This document shows, piece by piece, positions 25,426 to 32,819 of a DNA stretch of 61,692 bases. The DNA is from Komagataeibacter sp. FXV3 (GTDB taxonomy: Bacteria > Pseudomonadota > Alphaproteobacteria > Acetobacterales > Acetobacteraceae), in the NCBI RefSeq assembly GCF_015155755.1, contig NZ_VWPI01000001.1, positions 1 through 61,692 of the forward strand, written 5' to 3'. The position numbers were made by a program, and so were the translations under genes. A model generated the notes under the pieces. It was not told the DNA's origin and made no database searches. It saw nothing but the letters and a program-made list of their open reading frames with translations. Each line of letters starts with the position of its first letter. Within the stretch, counting starts at the first letter, position 1.

Positions 25426-25451
25426 TGATTGTATTGAACAGGAAGAGAGCA

Positions 25452-27797
25452 TTGTCCACGGACGAGATTGTCGATCCCACGATTGCCCCTTCCGACCAGT
25501 TCCGGCGCTTCCTTTATCATATCGGCATTCCCGTGGCCGGTGTGGTTTCGGTCATCGCCGTCATCGCCGGGGTGGGGTGGCATTCCTACCGGACCGTCCG
25601 GACCGGTGCGCTGACCCTGACGCATGACCTGCTGGTCAGCCAGCAGGATTATGTCGCCAAGGAAGTCAGTTCCTTCCTCATGCCCGCCTCCGCCGGGGCG
25701 ATCGTGGCCCGCGACATGCTCGAACATGGCGCGCCAGCGGTCGAGCAGAAGATCTTCAACGGCTACAGCAGCACCATGATGCGGAATGTTCCGCAGATCC
25801 AGTCCTTCTACATTGCCGACAGCGATGGCAATTTCAGTACGCTGGAACATGGGGAAAAGCCGGGTCAGACCGCGCTGACCACCCTGCATGACGTGGGAAC
25901 GCCCAAGGCCATTTTCACACATGAACTGCGTGACGATAATGGCAAGCTGCTCAAACAGTGGCAGACCCCGGCGGGTACGTATGACCCCCGTGGGCATGGA
26001 TGGTTTGCCGATACGGTCAAGGCCGGACAGGAAGTCTGGACCCGTCCCTACATGGTGGAGGTGACCAAGCAGGTCACCATCACGGCGGCGGTGCCGTACA
26101 AGGGCAGTGATGACAAGACGTATGTCTATGCCATCAACATGTCCCTCAACCATCTCAACAATTTTCTCAATTCGCTGAAAATTGGTGAAAGCGGCACCGC
26201 AATCCTGCTGGATCAGGACGAACATGTCGTTGCCGGCCACGGCATGCAGGAAACGCAGGCCAAGGCGCATGGCGACCCGTCCAGGATGACGCTGGACCCG
26301 GAAAAATTCCCGGTCATGACCAAGGCATTCGATGAATATCGCGTTCATGGCTACGGCGCGCGTACCGTCACCGTGAAGGGACGGCGGTATGTGACCATCA
26401 CCGCCAACCTGCCGGTGGGCAAGGATAGCTGGGTGCTGTTGATGGTCGCGCCCGAAGACGATTTTTCGCGCTTCGCCATGGCGGATGGACGGCAGAACCT
26501 GCTGTTTTTCGTTCTGGTCGTGGTCATGGCGCTGGGCTTTGGGCTGCTGCTGTTCCTGCAGGCGCGACGCGGGGACCGCCTGCGCAACCAGATTTCCCAG
26601 ACGCGGGCCGTCGCCAATTACGAAAGCCATGCCCTGCAGTCGGTCGCGACCTATCCCGATCTGTTCAATCCGGAAGACAACGCCCTTGTTCTGACCGAGA
26701 CGCTGGCTGACCAGTCCCATGCCCGCCGGGCGGCGATATGGCGGATCCTGCACGACGGGCATACGCTCATGTGCATCGATTCCTATGACCGGCAGCAGGA
26801 TGTGCATTCCGGTGGGTTCGAGATGTCCACAACGGACCTCAAGAGCTTTTTTGACGCCGTTTCCCATGGTGACGCACTGGTCGTCACCGATGCCTCCACC
26901 GATGACCGCACCACGGCGTTCTACCGTGTGTATATGCGTGCCTTTGGCAGTAAATCCCTGTTCTGCAATCCGATTCTGGGCAGTAGCGGCCCGGTTGGCG
27001 TCATCACGCTGGAAGATGCGCCACGGGCGGAAATGGTCTATCATTTCGTGGACATGATCGCCGGTGTTGCGGCGGCCCGCTTCTCCGCCCAGCATTATAC
27101 GGCCGTGGCTGCGGCACGGGAGGAACTGGAATCGGAGCCTCCCCAGGGCAGCGAGGGACCCGAAGATACCAGCCAGGGCTTCCTGCTGGCCCCCGGCGCG
27201 CTGTCCATCAACGGACAGCCAAGCGCAACGGACCTGAGCCAGTTGGAAGGGTTCTACCCTGCCGTTACCATCATGGTCATCAGCCTGTCCGACATGATCA
27301 TGACGGCCCAGAATGACCCTGCAGCCAACATCAAGCTGATTGATGATATGGCGATCGCGCTGCAGGATATCGCCCATCAATGCGGGCTGTATTCCATCCG
27401 CATGCTTGGCCATCGCGTCGTGTGTATTGCCGGGTGTTCGCGCACGCCGGACAAGACGGCGGTGTTCCACATGGCGAATGCGGCGCTCATGATGCGTGAA
27501 AACGTGCTGGCCATGCTGTCCAAGGCGGATCTGGATCCGGTTTTCCGCATTGGCATTGATGTCGGCCCGGTATTTGGCGGCATGCTGGGCAAGAACCCGC
27601 AGGCGTTCAACCTGTGGGGCGATGCCATGGGCATGGCCGAGATGATGGCGCAGGGCGCGCCGGATGTCGGCACGATCCAGGTATCGGAAAATGTCTATCA
27701 ACGCCTGCGTCAGTACTTCCTGTTCCGCGAACGTGGCCGGTTCTTCATTCCCGGCATGGGGCTGACGCGCACCTATGTGCTGGCCGGACGGCGATGA
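25452..27797 (+). CDS. Cache- and GAF-domain membrane protein with degenerate class III cyclase domain
   Basis: From a TTG at 25452, chosen because AGGAAGAGAG ends just before it with good spacing, the product is 781 residues; a TTG at 25434 would add six. A membrane segment at about residues 23-45 and another at 348-368 flank a large extracytoplasmic region resembling a dCache sensor (YDPRGHGWFADTV and GTAILLDQDEHVVAGHG). A GAF-like region (about 390-550) precedes a class III cyclase homology domain (about 600-775, RIGIDVGPVFGGMLG, NLWGDAMGMAEMM). In the cyclase domain the first metal Asp position reads Ser (VISLSD), the second reads His (MLGHRVV), and the transition-state Asn and Arg are Gly and Met; only the WGD Asp persists. 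It therefore probably senses ligands without making cyclic nucleotide. It overlaps mlaE by ATGA. Confidence 0.82.
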   Translation: MSTDEIVDPTIAPSDQFRRFLYHIGIPVAGVVSVIAVIAGVGWHSYRTVRTGALTLTHDLLVSQQDYVAKEVSSFLMPASAGAIVARDMLEHGAPAVEQKIFNGYSSTMMRNVPQIQSFYIADSDGNFSTLEHGEKPGQTALTTLHDVGTPKAIFTHELRDDNGKLLKQWQTPAGTYDPRGHGWFADTVKAGQEVWTRPYMVEVTKQVTITAAVPYKGSDDKTYVYAINMSLNHLNNFLNSLKIGESGTAILLDQDEHVVAGHGMQETQAKAHGDPSRMTLDPEKFPVMTKAFDEYRVHGYGARTVTVKGRRYVTITANLPVGKDSWVLLMVAPEDDFSRFAMADGRQNLLFFVLVVVMALGFGLLLFLQARRGDRLRNQISQTRAVANYESHALQSVATYPDLFNPEDNALVLTETLADQSHARRAAIWRILHDGHTLMCIDSYDRQQDVHSGGFEMSTTDLKSFFDAVSHGDALVVTDASTDDRTTAFYRVYMRAFGSKSLFCNPILGSSGPVGVITLEDAPRAEMVYHFVDMIAGVAAARFSAQHYTAVAAAREELESEPPQGSEGPEDTSQGFLLAPGALSINGQPSATDLSQLEGFYPAVTIMVISLSDMIMTAQNDPAANIKLIDDMAIALQDIAHQCGLYSIRMLGHRVVCIAGCSRTPDKTAVFHMANAALMMRENVLAMLSKADLDPVFRIGIDVGPVFGGMLGKNPQAFNLWGDAMGMAEMMAQGAPDVGTIQVSENVYQRLRQYFLFRERGRFFIPGMGLTRTYVLAGRR

Positions 27798-28684
27798 CCG
27801 ATACGCCAACACCTGCCCCTGAACACGTGGCGCCGCAGGCCGACCCCATGGCCGGTCCCCAGCCGGACAATGGCGGTCGCCTGGTGCACCTGGTACGGCG
27901 TTTTGCGCCGTGGCTTGCGGCACTTGGGCGACTGACGCGGCATCAGGTCCGTTTTGCCCTGCTGGTGATTGGTGCCGGATGGGGGGCGATACGCGAAAGC
28001 ATGCGCCCCAATTCATGGCGCAGGCCGGTTATCTATGAATTCCGCGCAACCCTGCGGCAGGTGGTCAGTGGCGGTTTCCTGAGTATCGTGATCACCGCGA
28101 CGCTGACGGGCCTGATGGTGGTGTCACAGGCCGCGTACTGGCTGGGTTACGCCGGTATGGCGCAGATGACGGGGTCAATCCTTGTTTCCGTGCTGGTGCG
28201 TGAAATCTCGCCCATCCTGGTCGGTATCATCATCATGGGGCGCAGCGGCATGCTGTCGCTGACCGAAATCGGCATGATGGTACTTGGTGGGGAAGTGCGT
28301 GCACTGCAGGCGCGCGGCATTGATCCGTTCCTGGCGCTGGTCATGCCGCGTACGTTCGCCTTTACCCTGGGTGGCTTTACGCTGGGCATGATCTTTGCCG
28401 TCGTATCGCTGCTGATGGGGTTTGTGGTCGCGCATTCCACGGGGGCCATCACGTCTTCGGTCTGGACATTCTTTTTCAATGTCCTTGGTGCGATGACCAC
28501 ATGGGATTACCTGATCATTCCACTGAAATTCGTGCTGGTCGGTTTCTTTGTCGGGCTGGGGGCCTGTGTTTCGGGCCTGACCGTCAGCAGCAACGACACG
28601 ATGGCCACCATCATGCCACGTGGCTTCGCACGTGGGATCATGCTGGTGCTGGTGGTCAATATCCTCTTCATGCTGGATTTCTGA
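27794..28684 (+). CDS. mlaE: MlaE-like ABC transporter permease
   Basis: MlaE-type permeases form the inner-membrane core of lipid transport systems that exchange phospholipid between inner and outer membrane. The 296-residue product has an N-terminal Pro-rich tail, an interfacial helix, and about five hydrophobic segments from residue 80 on. The family core GSILVSVLVREISPILVGI and GRSGMLSLTEIGMMVLGGEVRAL (the conserved E-I-G-x-M-x-x-x-x-E-x-x-A-L loop) is intact. Start ATG 27794 overlaps the sensor gene's stop (ATGA), and the next gene follows after one base. The symbol is by homology; a second Mla system could exist elsewhere. Confidence 0.85.
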   Translation: MTDTPTPAPEHVAPQADPMAGPQPDNGGRLVHLVRRFAPWLAALGRLTRHQVRFALLVIGAGWGAIRESMRPNSWRRPVIYEFRATLRQVVSGGFLSIVITATLTGLMVVSQAAYWLGYAGMAQMTGSILVSVLVREISPILVGIIIMGRSGMLSLTEIGMMVLGGEVRALQARGIDPFLALVMPRTFAFTLGGFTLGMIFAVVSLLMGFVVAHSTGAITSSVWTFFFNVLGAMTTWDYLIIPLKFVLVGFFVGLGACVSGLTVSSNDTMATIMPRGFARGIMLVLVVNILFMLDF

Positions 28685-28685
28685 C

Positions 28686-29381
28686 ATGACAGCCAACGCA
28701 CCCCTGCTGGAACTGCGTAACGTCGTGCCGTCGTTCGAGGAAACCGGCCTCATGCCCGCGCCCTACAACCTGCGCATCATGCCCGGTGAATGCGCGGTGG
28801 TTGATTGCCGTGACTTTGAACGGGCTGCGATGTTTGCCGACCTGTGTTCCGGCATGGTGTCCCTGACGCAGGGTACTATCAGGTTCATGGGGCTGGACTG
28901 GGCTGCGCTGCGCGACCGGCAGCTCAATGCGCTGCGGGGGCGGATTGGCCGCATTTCGCGCAGCAGCAGCTGGCTCAACCTGTTTGGCACGCATCTCAAC
29001 ATCATGCTGCCGCACCTGTACCATACCACGGACCCGTTTGATAACGTGGTCCTGCGTGCCACTGAACTGGGGAACCGGTTTGGTTTTCCCGGCCTGCCAA
29101 CATCCGCGCCCGACCGGCTGTCGGGCGCGGATCTGGCGCGGGCGGCCTGTGTGCGCGCGTTTATGGGGCGGCCGGATCTGCTGGTGCTGGAGGATATATC
29201 CGACACGCTGCCAGAGGAGAATATCCTGCCGTTTTTTGAAATGATGACCACGGCGCGGGATCGTGGCTGTGGCGTGTTATGGTTCGTCCGTTCCGCGGCG
29301 GCGTGGCATGAGTATCGCAAGGCGGTGAATATCCACATGCGCCTTCTTGACGAAGGTCTTTTTCCCATGCGGGTGGTGTAA
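28686..29381 (+). CDS. MlaF-like ABC protein with degenerate nucleotide-binding motifs
   Basis: By position and length (231 residues) this is the ATPase partner of the permease, but the expected motifs are lost. The Walker A position (residues about 40-47) reads DCRDFERA instead of GxxGxGK[ST]; the Q-loop position reads SRSSS; Walker B (about 167-170) reads VLEDI rather than hhhhDEP; the H-loop position in WFVRSAA has no His. A remnant signature LSGADLARAACVRAF (about 142-156) shows that it descends from an ABC ATPase. ATP hydrolysis by this protein alone seems unlikely. Start ATG 28686 is one base after mlaE and its stop overlaps the next gene by one base. Confidence 0.75.
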   Translation: MTANAPLLELRNVVPSFEETGLMPAPYNLRIMPGECAVVDCRDFERAAMFADLCSGMVSLTQGTIRFMGLDWAALRDRQLNALRGRIGRISRSSSWLNLFGTHLNIMLPHLYHTTDPFDNVVLRATELGNRFGFPGLPTSAPDRLSGADLARAACVRAFMGRPDLLVLEDISDTLPEENILPFFEMMTTARDRGCGVLWFVRSAAAWHEYRKAVNIHMRLLDEGLFPMRVV

Positions 29382-30334
29382 TGGTCCAGAAACAACAGTC
29401 AGACGGAATCCGGCAGCTTGTGCGTGTCCGTTACGCCGATGAATGGGTGGGGATCCTTGTCCTTGTGGCCCTTGTCATCCTGCTTGGCGCGGTGATCGAG
29501 GCAGGCGTGCTGCGTGACTGGCTGACGCCTGCGGGCAGGTTGCGGATCGTGCTGCCGGAAAACGGGGTCAGCGGCCTGTCCGTTGGTGACGACCTGGAGG
29601 TCATGGGCATCCATGCGGGCACCGTGCGGCGTGTGCGGATCAATCCATCGGGGGGCATGTACGCCATTGCCGAAATCGATCCCGACATCGAACCCTATAT
29701 CCGTCGTGACAGCACGGCCATCATCCGCAAGCGTTTCGTGGTGGCTGGTGCCAGCTACATCGACATCTCACGCGGGACGGCGGAAAAGCTGGACTGGAGC
29801 TATGCGGTGCTGAGCGCCACAAACGCCCCCAACCCGGCTGACACCATTACCCAGACCTTCAGTGACATCCGTGATCGTGTCATTCCGGTTCTGGACAATG
29901 CCCAGCACATGATGGCGACGCTGGATGCCACCATTACGGACATGCATGCAGGCAAGGGCTCCATCGGGCGTCTCATGACCAATGATGACCTGATCCGGCA
30001 GGCTGAACAGATGATCACCAGCCTTAATGCCACCGTTTCACAGCTGACACCGATCGAAAAACAGCTTGCGGGTGTCATGGACAAGGCGAGTGCAAGCATG
30101 ACCAACGTGCAGAAGGCCACGGGTGACCTGAGCAACGCGACACCGGCCATCACCCATAACCTGCAGGATGCCAGCCAGCAGCTGCCGGTACTTCTGGTGC
30201 AGGCGCAGACAACCGCTACCAGCCTGCAGAAGCTGGTCGATCAGATGCGCGGACTGTGGATACTGGGCGGTAATGGCAACAAGGCGGCAAAGCATGCCCA
30301 TGCCCGCCTCCCGGCGCAGAAGGTGCAGCCATGA
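29381..30334 (+). CDS. mlaD: MCE-domain protein (MlaD-like)
   Basis: MCE proteins form rings that carry lipid through the periplasm, anchored to the permease by one helix. The 317-residue product has an N-terminal membrane segment at about residues 23-45 (VGILVLVALVILLGAVIEAG), then an MCE domain from about 52 to 135 (LRIVLPENGVSGLSVGDDLEVMGIHAGTV). A Ser/Thr/Gln-rich helical coiled-coil region with repeated LNATVSQL-like heptads fills residues 160-290. It is longer than E. coli MlaD (about 180 residues), resembling MCE proteins with long coiled tails. It overlaps the previous gene by one base and the next by ATGA. Confidence 0.85.
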   Translation: MVQKQQSDGIRQLVRVRYADEWVGILVLVALVILLGAVIEAGVLRDWLTPAGRLRIVLPENGVSGLSVGDDLEVMGIHAGTVRRVRINPSGGMYAIAEIDPDIEPYIRRDSTAIIRKRFVVAGASYIDISRGTAEKLDWSYAVLSATNAPNPADTITQTFSDIRDRVIPVLDNAQHMMATLDATITDMHAGKGSIGRLMTNDDLIRQAEQMITSLNATVSQLTPIEKQLAGVMDKASASMTNVQKATGDLSNATPAITHNLQDASQQLPVLLVQAQTTATSLQKLVDQMRGLWILGGNGNKAAKHAHARLPAQKVQP

Positions 30335-31224
30335 GCATGAAAAAGGAACACGTGGCCCTTGGCGTTGCCCTTGCGCTGGCGGGATGTGGCGGCGGGGGGC
30401 AGGCGGTTACCCAGCCGGGTGACACCACCCTGTCGCAGGACATGGATACCGCGAAGGATGCCGTGGGGCTTGAACGCCTCTCAGTGGCGGAACAGCAGTA
30501 CCGGGCCGCAGGTCAGCGTGCCATCGCGCGCGATGATGTCACGGCCATCGGCGATGCGGGTTACAACCTGGCGACGGTGCAACTGGACGAGGGCAAGTCG
30601 CAGGATGCGCTGTCCACAGTGACCGCGACGCGTTCGGCCCTGGCGATGCGCGGCCAGACGGGAGATGATGCCGGTCTGGATCTGGTTCAGGCGGGCGCGC
30701 TGCACCGGCTGGGCCAGGATACCGAAGCCGCTGCTGCCGCATCACGCGCTGCAGGCGCGCAGGACACCGATATTGTCGAGAAAGCCCAGCTGATCCGCGG
30801 CCTGATTGCCGATGACAGCGGGGATCAGGCTACACTGGCCTCCGTTGATGCCTATTTTGCCAACCTGACCGGAAAGCTGCCGGATGGCTGGACGGCAGAT
30901 GCAAAGGAAATTGCCGCCCGGAACCTGCTGGCCACGGGTGGCAGCACGCAGACCGCCATGCAGGACGCGATGCAGGCGGCGACCATTCGCCAGACGCAGG
31001 TGGATTACCGTGACATGGCCCGTGCCCTTGGGGTTGCCGCGCGTGCGGCCGACAAGGCGGGCAATACACAGGTGGCTGCCCAGCTTTACGCCCGTGCCAG
31101 CCAGAGCGCGCGACAGGCGGGTGACAAGACCGCCGCCGATCGCTGGGCAAAGCAGGCGGGCACGGCAACGGCCGCAGATCCTTTTGCCCTGCCCGTGACT
31201 ACGACAACGGTAAAGAAAAAGTAG
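30331..31224 (+). CDS. Lipoprotein of the mla-like operon with helical repeats
   Basis: The 297-residue product (ATG 30331, ATGA overlap with mlaD; an ATG at 30337 is possible) starts MSMKKEHVALGVALALAGCG, with a lipobox LAGC and the lipidated Cys at residue 19. The rest is Ala-, Gln- and Asp-rich with helical segments that look like TPR or similar repeats (AEQQYRAAGQRAIARDD, AAQLYARASQSARQAGDKTA). I do not recognise the family. Its place as the fifth overlapping gene suggests that it is an outer- or inner-membrane-anchored partner of the lipid transporter. Confidence 0.7.
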   Translation: MSMKKEHVALGVALALAGCGGGGQAVTQPGDTTLSQDMDTAKDAVGLERLSVAEQQYRAAGQRAIARDDVTAIGDAGYNLATVQLDEGKSQDALSTVTATRSALAMRGQTGDDAGLDLVQAGALHRLGQDTEAAAAASRAAGAQDTDIVEKAQLIRGLIADDSGDQATLASVDAYFANLTGKLPDGWTADAKEIAARNLLATGGSTQTAMQDAMQAATIRQTQVDYRDMARALGVAARAADKAGNTQVAAQLYARASQSARQAGDKTAADRWAKQAGTATAADPFALPVTTTTVKKK

Positions 31225-31361: not shown

Positions 31362-32819
31362 TTATCCAGCCTGCAACCGCGTATGCTGGGCCAGAAGTCG
31401 GGTGCTGGCGCCATTCAGGCCGATCAGTTGCACGTCCATGCCCTGTGCCTCCATCTTGCCAATCAGTTCTTCCAGCATGCCGGCCGCCGTCATGTCCCAT
31501 ATATGGGCATGGGTCAGGTCGATCGTGACATGGCGGGCCGTATCATGCAGATCGAACGCATCGGCAAAACCGTCGGATGAGGCAAAGAAGACCTGCCCGT
31601 TCACGATATAGGTCCGTGTCTGGCCATCAGCCGAAAGCGTATTGCTGACCGACAGCATGCTGGAAACCTGAAACGCGAAGAACAGTCCGTTCAGCAGTAC
31701 GCCCACGGCAACACCTGCTGCAAGATCATGCGTGCCCACGACAACCGCCACCGTCGCCAGCATGATGACACTGGTCGTGCGCGGATGATGGACAAGGTCA
31801 CGCAGCGACGACCATGAAAACGTACTGGCCGAAACCATGATCATGATTGCCACAAGGGCCGCCACCGGCACCTGCGCCACCCATGGGCGCAGCGCCACCA
31901 TAAGCAGCAGCAGGAAGGCACCCGCCACGAACGTGGACAGTCGCCCCCGTCCGCCATAGCGCAGGTTGCCCACCGTCTGTCCGATCATGCCGCAGCCCGC
32001 GATCCCGCCAAACAGGCCGACCGCGATATTGGCAATGCCCAGCCCCATGCATTCCTGCCGCTTGCTGCTGTGGGTTTCCGTCAGGTCATCCACCACGCGG
32101 GCCGTCATCATGGATTCCAGCACGCCCACGCTGGCCATGGCCAGCGCATAGGGGGCGATGATGTTGAATGTATCAAGCGAGAACGGCACGGCGGGCCAGA
32201 CCAGATGCGGCAGGCTGTCGGGCAGGCGACCAAGGTCGGCCACCGTATGCAACGGCATGGGGCACAGGATCGACACCACGGTCAGCACAACAATGCAGAT
32301 CAGGGGCGACGGGATGGCGGAAAAAAGCCGGGGCAGGGTATAGATGATCACCAGCCCCAGCGCGATCATGGCATAGGTATGCCATGTCACATGCAGCATA
32401 TGCGGGACCTGCGCCGAAAAGATCAGGATGGCCAGCGCATTGACGAAGCCGGTCCGCACCGGACGCGAGACATAGCGCATCAGCACATGCAGGCGCAGGA
32501 TGCCGAACACCACCTGCAACACCCCGCACAGCAGGGTCGCGGCCAGAAGGTACTGCACCCCATGGGCGCGCACCAGGGCGGCGGCAACCAGTGCGACCGA
32601 CCCGGCCGCCCCGGATATCATGCCCGGCCTGCCGCCGGTAAAGGCAATCACCACGCTTATGACAAAGGACGCATAAAGTCCGACGGCGGGATCGACCCCC
32701 GCGACAAAGGAAAATGCAATGACTTCGGGAATCAGCGCAAACGTGCCGACCATGCCGGCCAGTGTGTCACGTGTGATGTTGCCGAACCATTCCTGACGGT
32801 AACGGGCGAGTGCAGACAT
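31362..32819 (-). CDS. SulP-family inorganic anion transporter
   Basis: The 485-residue membrane protein has the SulP core: about 10-12 hydrophobic segments, an N-terminal DTLAGMVGTFALIPEVIAFSFVAG segment in place of the common LAGLTVGVVALPLA, and GLYASFVISVVIAFTGG. A C-terminal STAS-like domain is present from about residue 400 (YIVNGQVFFASSDGFADAFD, then VTIDLTHAHIWDMTAAGMLEELI). Substrates in the family are sulfate, bicarbonate or dicarboxylates; the sequence does not decide which. The GGIAGCGMIGQTVGN segment is the family's conserved ligand-site loop. It lies 34 bases downstream of queD but probably is transcribed with or after the que genes. Confidence 0.88.
   Translation of the reverse strand: MSALARYRQEWFGNITRDTLAGMVGTFALIPEVIAFSFVAGVDPAVGLYASFVISVVIAFTGGRPGMISGAAGSVALVAAALVRAHGVQYLLAATLLCGVLQVVFGILRLHVLMRYVSRPVRTGFVNALAILIFSAQVPHMLHVTWHTYAMIALGLVIIYTLPRLFSAIPSPLICIVVLTVVSILCPMPLHTVADLGRLPDSLPHLVWPAVPFSLDTFNIIAPYALAMASVGVLESMMTARVVDDLTETHSSKRQECMGLGIANIAVGLFGGIAGCGMIGQTVGNLRYGGRGRLSTFVAGAFLLLLMVALRPWVAQVPVAALVAIMIMVSASTFSWSSLRDLVHHPRTTSVIMLATVAVVVGTHDLAAGVAVGVLLNGLFFAFQVSSMLSVSNTLSADGQTRTYIVNGQVFFASSDGFADAFDLHDTARHVTIDLTHAHIWDMTAAGMLEELIGKMEAQGMDVQLIGLNGASTRLLAQHTRLQAG

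Follow-up and report, generated by a model that had tools for sequence, protein, structure and literature searches.

A Mla-type MCE operon of Komagataeibacter sp. FXV3 holds a conserved pseudo-NBD, i.e. a protein with the predicted fold of an ABC nucleotide-binding domain (NBD) but without nucleotide-binding motifs, together with a conserved pseudo-cyclase. Within the open-licence literature that we searched, this combination is new. By its residues the pseudo-NBD is not an active ABC ATPase, which is inferred from sequence alone without data on ATP binding or hydrolysis. The window, that is the whole stretch of 61,692 nucleotides that was analysed, carries the operon as five tightly spaced genes (25434-31224, + strand) for a sensor, an MlaE permease, the pseudo-NBD, an MCE protein and a TPR-like protein. 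The features are as follows.

25434..27797, +: dCache-GAF-class III cyclase-like sensor, 787 aa, TTG start (Pfam dCache_1, GAF, Guanylate_cyc); catalytic residues of the cyclase domain gone
25434..27797, +: domain order of the sensor, TM, periplasmic dCache, TM, GAF, cyclase-like (the two TM segments judged by eye)
27794..28684, +: MlaE-family permease, divergent, coupling-helix region partly conserved (PF02405, E 5e-34)
28686..29381, +: pseudo-NBD, ABC NBD fold without nucleotide-binding motifs, 231 aa, ATG to TAA (profiles, residue census, predicted fold)
28806..28829, +: P-loop position, residues 41-48, CRDFERAA, with A47 at the lysine position (alignment with intact ABC proteins)
28959..28961, +: Q-loop position, R92 (residue census)
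29118..29132, +: signature remnant LSGAD, residues 145-149, D149 being a new near-invariant residue (residue census)
29178..29195, +: Walker B position LLVLED, residues 165-170, with E169 in place of the Mg-binding Asp (residue census)
29289..29291, +: H-loop position, R202 (residue census)
29381..30334, +: MCE (MlaD-like) protein, one MCE domain and a long C-terminal part, 317 aa (PF02470, E 3e-10)
30331..31224, +: TPR-like protein with a lipoprotein-type start (LAGC, judged by eye), 297 aa (weak TPR match below the cut-off)

The operon and its permease

According to the coordinates, the cyclase-like gene and mlaE overlap by 4 nt, a gap of 1 nt separates mlaE from the pseudo-NBD gene, the latter overlaps the MCE gene by 1 nt, and the MCE and TPR-like genes overlap by 4 nt. 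A sequence-only reading had placed an ABC-like open reading frame at 28686-29381 between an MlaE permease and an MCE protein, and this held with exact coordinates. The MCE protein passes the PF02470 cut-off (40.8 vs. 25.1 bits), and a tblastn match to the TPR-like gene was found in 36/46 loci, some of these matches being short. An MlaE gene lies upstream and an MCE gene downstream of the pseudo-NBD in 155/155 loci, and on the basis of these conserved neighbours we consider the five genes of the operon to form a unit.

The sensor gene is located upstream in 145/155 loci. Seven of the ten loci without an adjoining sensor are no longer than 3.1 kb, and in G013 the sensor is found about 1 kb further off. 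The loci of the genomes G523 and G553 cover about 11 kb and have no sensor gene; thus, the sensor is not required everywhere. In both genomes (loci L113 and L115, respectively) MlaE, pseudo-NBD, MCE and TPR-like genes are all kept, with only the upstream cyclase-like sensor missing. A gene next to the operon (31362-32819, − strand), which encodes a SulP permease with a STAS domain, was considered as an MlaB-like partner. Among 44 loci that extend far enough to show it (3 kb or more), only 19 have it near the operon, and these are confined to Komagataeibacter (G060, a genome of the same genus, being one of them), Novacetimonas, Gluconacetobacter and G013. Since it is not general, it was excluded from the system.

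The permease had been described as intact in the sequence-only reading. It passes the gathering cut-off of PF02405 (118.1 vs. 22.5 bits); with 84.7 bits it stays far below the TIGR00056 cut-off of the MlaE subfamily (212.2). It is near full length in 151/155 loci, the four short matches being those of G636 (contig end), G126 (eroded), G142 (internal TAG) and G136. The coupling-helix region keeps R-E, G-R-x-G and P-R in the permease family; E-I-G is not kept throughout, as seen for L064 with V-L-G. As a separate observation, the pseudo-NBD and MCE genes at the G142 locus (L012) are open next to the MlaE frame with the internal TAG.

Loss of the ATP site in a conserved protein

The pseudo-NBD was detected in 160 genomes, and 155 sequences were read (G441, G442, G524, G596 and G597 were left out). 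CRDFERAA (residues 41-48) aligns without gaps to the P-loop of five intact ABC proteins (e.g. APSGTGKS), which carry every one of the motifs considered here. In the window protein the Walker B line reads LLVLED, in which Asp is exchanged for Glu and the catalytic Glu for Asp; the Q-loop Gln and the H-loop His are absent (R92, R202), and the signature is reduced to LSGAD. The sequence-only reading had noted exactly this loss of Walker A, Walker B, Q-loop and H-loop with a remnant LSG, and had stated that every motif is lost. Both hold for the window protein, whereas the second does not hold for every orthologue. Although none of the 154 orthologues that have the column carries the P-loop lysine, the Q-loop Gln is retained in 27/155, Glu at the catalytic position in 10/155, the H-loop His in 2/155 and the Walker B Asp in 1/155. 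None of the 155 orthologues has the Walker B Asp-Glu pair. The first signature Gly is retained in 13/155 and the second in 4/155. GK[ST] occurs nowhere in any of the 155 pseudo-NBD proteins, and no common motif is found across the family in the former phosphate-binding loop. The loss of the site is thus shown at the level of residues.

Other residues have become fixed. R84, G88, G136 and R157 are invariant (155/155), and W72, H113, D149 and E169 are near-invariant new residues; D149 is present in 152 of the 154 orthologues having a residue there, and Glu at the Walker B Asp position (E169) in 151/155. A sequencing error, chance or a local mutation could be ruled out, as the same losses are seen in 155 genomes. 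No intact intermediate was found among the 155 proteins, the eight divergent members (L110-L117) included, and three of the next-best matches in the class that were aligned (L075, L076, L079) all have ordinary P-loops. The search for close homologues with canonical motifs, which could have refuted the sequence-only reading, was therefore negative in 155 genomes, and the motif losses are conserved.

An AlphaFold model of the pseudo-NBD (pLDDT 91.6, pTM 0.90) shows the full ABC NBD fold, although this is a prediction only. Foldseek returned 1188 PDB matches at E ≤ 0.001 with YbbA, MlaF and FtsE among the top ones, and the TM-score is 0.84 to YbbA and 0.80 to MlaF (6xgz). A helix begins at residue 44 of the model, i.e. 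within the former P-loop. Profiles recognise the family to different extents. The window protein matches TIGR02211 at E 6e-10 and, in the PDB, the NBD of MacB at E 6e-7; PF00005 remains below its cut-off (18.3 vs. 25 bits) and matches just 25/45 orthologues even at E 0.01. The protein scores higher on LolD, DevA and FtsE models than on MlaF (NF008809, E 0.0036). Among 45 orthologues, matches were obtained to FtsE in 44, DevA in 42, LolD in 41 and MlaF in 26, the latter counted at E 0.001 with a best value of 3e-11. When 20 pseudo-NBDs were placed in a tree with 16 intact ABC proteins, they grouped as a single clade (support 100), set off by a long branch and separate from that of MlaF (support 99). 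Their neighbour is L066 with a support of merely 49, so that the nearest kin is unresolved; a motif filter had dropped several candidate loci from the tree, including L002, the best intact match of the own genome. Thus, the designation Mla-type, as given in the sequence-only reading, is only partly held: the pseudo-NBD is Mla-type by its gene neighbours and not by its own sequence.

The closest named match of the pseudo-NBD is from K. europaeus (98%). A search of 150 genomes of the family yielded 46 orthologues, delimited by a gap in E-values between the last orthologue (1.5e-19) and the next match (4.2e-14). A profile search of a sample of the order, which we take to be Acetobacterales in GTDB, detected the pseudo-NBD in 153/299 genomes and 32/65 genera. 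In a class sample of 289 genomes it was found in only one genome outside the family, G185 (E 1.8e-70). This genome belongs to another family of the class outside the order and has the complete five-gene operon including the degenerate NBD (L110). As its copy nests within the diversity of the family, on weakly supported branches, there is a hint of transfer, and acquisition of this operon by transfer is likely.

Purifying selection on the pseudo-NBD gene is shown by dN/dS (NG86), with a median of 0.121 (range 0.082-0.160) against 11 Komagataeibacter; these are 11 of the 12 loci of this genus, a short K. europaeus contig being excluded. Medians of the neighbours in the same comparison are 0.104 (MlaE), 0.057 (MCE), 0.153 (cyclase-like) and 0.147 (TPR). 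Values against six Novacetimonas and Gluconacetobacter loci are 0.164-0.294, with synonymous sites near saturation. The best conserved region is the Walker B stretch (mean 3.14 bits). Furthermore, 18 of the 40 most conserved columns fall into residues 82-142 where 10.6 are expected (hypergeometric p 0.004). This region was picked after an earlier look at the alignment, and the p value is uncorrected for relatedness. Residues 82-142 correspond to the helical region on the permease-facing side of an NBD. In G126, which has a small genome, erosion of the operon is evident.

The upstream sensor and intact MlaF systems

The sequence-only reading had missed that the upstream cyclase-like gene is also dead. 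We scored two metal Asp, Lys, the purine Asp/Thr and the transition-state Asn and Arg, whose roles (metal, purine, transition state) we take to be those of class III cyclases. The window sensor has 0/6 of these residues; among 70 sensor orthologues 45 keep none, 23 keep one and two keep two, whereas six control cyclases have 6/6 each. Loci whose match spanned 150 aa or less were left out of this census, and two of eight candidate controls (L209, L221) were dropped because the match had not picked the cyclase domain. Nevertheless, PF00211 matches the cyclase domain of the sensor at E 7e-21, which is the sole PF00211 match of the genome. The fold of the domain is predicted at pLDDT 92.2, and the three best bacterial cyclase entries match the model with TM-scores of 0.82-0.86. 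The cyclase-like part is also the most conserved part of the sensor (mean majority fraction 0.60 vs. 0.45-0.59 elsewhere), as determined from 47 sequences, many of them closely related. The dCache loop has a YDPR..W motif drifting between genera, which we take to belong to amino-acid binding in relatives. While the loss of the catalytic residues is shown, it is an inference from the residue census and the predicted fold, without activity data, that the sensor is a conserved pseudoenzyme, namely a dead class III cyclase.

Looking for a second, intact mlaF, a check proposed together with the sequence-only reading, gave a positive result. The own genome has two further MlaE genes, on contigs C29 and C208, each adjoining an intact MlaF gene; P-loop, LSGG, DEP and H-loop are all intact in both MlaF proteins. 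Another MlaE match and an MlaF match at E ≤ 1e-45 were both found in 47/47 carriers searched. The copies in G126 are damaged, its MlaF gene by five internal stops, and the MlaF match in G009 is partial, covering residues 4-134 only. MlaF and MlaE were checked in carriers only. As non-carriers are outside the sample, the presence of MlaF in carriers does not show dependence. Joint erosion of both systems in G126 was considered as evidence of coupling to MlaF and rejected, because 21/51 sampled genes of this genome are disrupted as background decay (10/46 in the control direction). A side observation concerns the MlaE on C208 (L039), which has a long N-terminal extension (382 aa in total), STAS-like by eye, and adjoins the intact MlaF and an MCE gene.

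Possible role and rival explanations

For the function of an ABC-like protein without ATP site, the sequence-only reading had offered a different ATPase, passive operation, or a structural or regulatory role. These options are supported as a set, and the data cannot choose between them. By a modest margin we favour the view that the pseudo-NBD has a structural or regulatory role in association with the MlaE of its operon; docking is assumed by analogy, without data on interaction, dimerisation, expression, transport or ATP binding. In this view, an ancestral NBD would have ceased to bind and hydrolyse ATP before the carriers diverged and would then have been retained for another job. The pseudo-NBD may dimerise and dock on the cytoplasmic coupling helices of MlaE, the usual seat of an NBD, where it would hold an MlaE2-MCE6 complex together and determine its conformation while running no ATP cycle itself, so that the complex would not be powered by its own NBD. 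The membrane sensor, with periplasmic dCache and cytosolic GAF and dead cyclase domains, may respond to a ligand and pass this signal on, through contact, to the pseudo-NBD or to MlaE. Lipid passage would thereby be gated by the signal, and lipid would flow down a gradient or be pulled by a partner. Signal gating, taken alone, is inferred, and we lean slightly against it.

Work on other systems bears on this reading. In E. coli the coupling helix links MlaE to MlaF (PMC7790496), and for MlaB a regulated binding of the NBD to the complex was proposed (PMC7367683). In mycobacteria the transporters become unstable without MceG, or when MceG lacks its Walker B residues (PMC9947336). From the coupling helix and the effect of MceG loss it follows that an NBD matters to the complex itself. 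Nevertheless, ATPase residues are needed for both transport and complex stability in the mycobacterial relatives (PMC9947336); a dead NBD is thus no obvious substitute, which counts against the favoured reading. Furthermore, E. coli MlaF dimerises through a C-terminal extension (PMC7367683), for which the pseudo-NBD, ending at 231 aa, has scant room. Besides this short C terminus, further points against the reading are that the permease has diverged too, that E-I-G of the coupling helix is not universal, that the MlaE frame of G142 has an internal TAG, and that the sensor is not required everywhere.

The main rival is a motor supplied in trans, which is possible and not excluded. The intact MlaF of another Mla operon would drive this MlaE, and the pseudo-NBD would serve as adaptor or placeholder, or contribute one subunit to a mixed pair of NBDs. 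In favour of it are the intact MlaF genes on C29 and C208, the MlaE and MlaF matches in all 47 carriers searched, and the precedent of a shared ATPase, as MceG appears to serve both Mce1 and Mce4 of mycobacteria (PMC9947336). However, each intact MlaF of the genome adjoins its own MlaE, and E. coli MlaE was shown as a dimer (PMC7790496), which makes a one-plus-one NBD pair unusual. In addition, constant MlaF in carriers does not discriminate, since nearly all members of the family may have the canonical system, and the joint erosion in G126 is no evidence in view of the genome-wide decay there.

A remodelled site is unlikely. According to this explanation a nucleotide or another ligand is bound in the old pocket via D149, E169, H113 and R84, and the protein works as a switch under the control of this ligand, or hydrolyses ATP after all in some unusual way. 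Indeed, the residues at the former motif positions are non-random (E169 in 151/155, D149 in 152/154), and conservation is highest in the Walker B stretch (mean 3.14 bits). On the other hand, the phosphate loop is without a common motif and GK[ST] is found in 0/155 proteins, the modelled helix starts at residue 44 within the old loop, and conservation of the strand may be structural. That a former ATPase gene is still decaying, for which only the lost catalytic motifs and the eroded operon of the single genome G126 speak, is all but excluded by the open frame, the strong purifying selection against 11 Komagataeibacter, the occurrence in 32/65 genera of the order sample, the invariant new residues and the MlaE and MCE neighbours in 155/155 loci; the sequence-only reading, too, had argued against decay.

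A bolder version of the structural or regulatory reading is that ATP was given up wholly, and that pseudo-ATPase and pseudo-cyclase sensor make a ligand-gated, non-powered lipid conduit. We consider this version rather less credible than its opposite.

Several known systems resemble parts of the operon. MlaFEDB of E. coli and Acinetobacter shares the gene set of MlaE permease, NBD and MCE protein and the NBD fold (TM-score 0.80 to MlaF), but here the NBD is without ATP site, the permease is far under the subfamily cut-off and a sensor pseudo-cyclase stands in front. The minimal MlaEFD of Veillonella parvula with its elongated MlaD (PMC10665443) is alike in having a longer MCE protein (here 317 aa) in an operon with permease and NBD; unlike the pseudo-NBD, its MlaF was described as close to that of model diderms (PMC10665443). 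The relevant sections of that paper mention neither a pseudo-NBD nor a cyclase-like gene. The mycobacterial Mce1 and Mce4 are MCE systems with a shared ATPase that is not dedicated to one permease operon (PMC9947336). MceG showed ATPase activity (PMC9947336), whereas here a dead NBD fills the ATPase slot of the operon; a pseudo-NBD is not mentioned in the relevant sections of that paper.

As in the degenerate-site ABC transporters TM287/288, CFTR and SUR1, an NBD site with weakened catalytic motifs has been kept by selection. Those transporters keep one competent site, and their degenerate site usually still binds ATP; by contrast, the only NBD gene of the operon described here is without any ATP site. 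The sensor resembles class III adenylate/guanylate cyclases behind dCache and GAF in domain content and cyclase fold, but metal, purine and transition-state residues are largely lost in its family. No description of a pseudo-NBD in an MCE operon, or of this operon in Acetobacteraceae, was found in the titles and abstract openings of open-licence PMC papers that were searched; the listings were partial, and subscription papers and preprints were outside this search.

The named carriers include makers of vinegar and bacterial cellulose, which live in acid and ethanol. Mla-type MCE transporters are regarded as driven by ATP, and it has been debated in which direction lipid flows through Mla and what energy source is used. 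A lineage keeping MlaE and MCE proteins with a conserved dead NBD is a natural separation-of-function mutant, and allows asking what an NBD does for the complex besides burning ATP. If true, a dead cyclase sensor and a dead NBD in one operon would make an unusual double-pseudoenzyme unit of signalling and transport.
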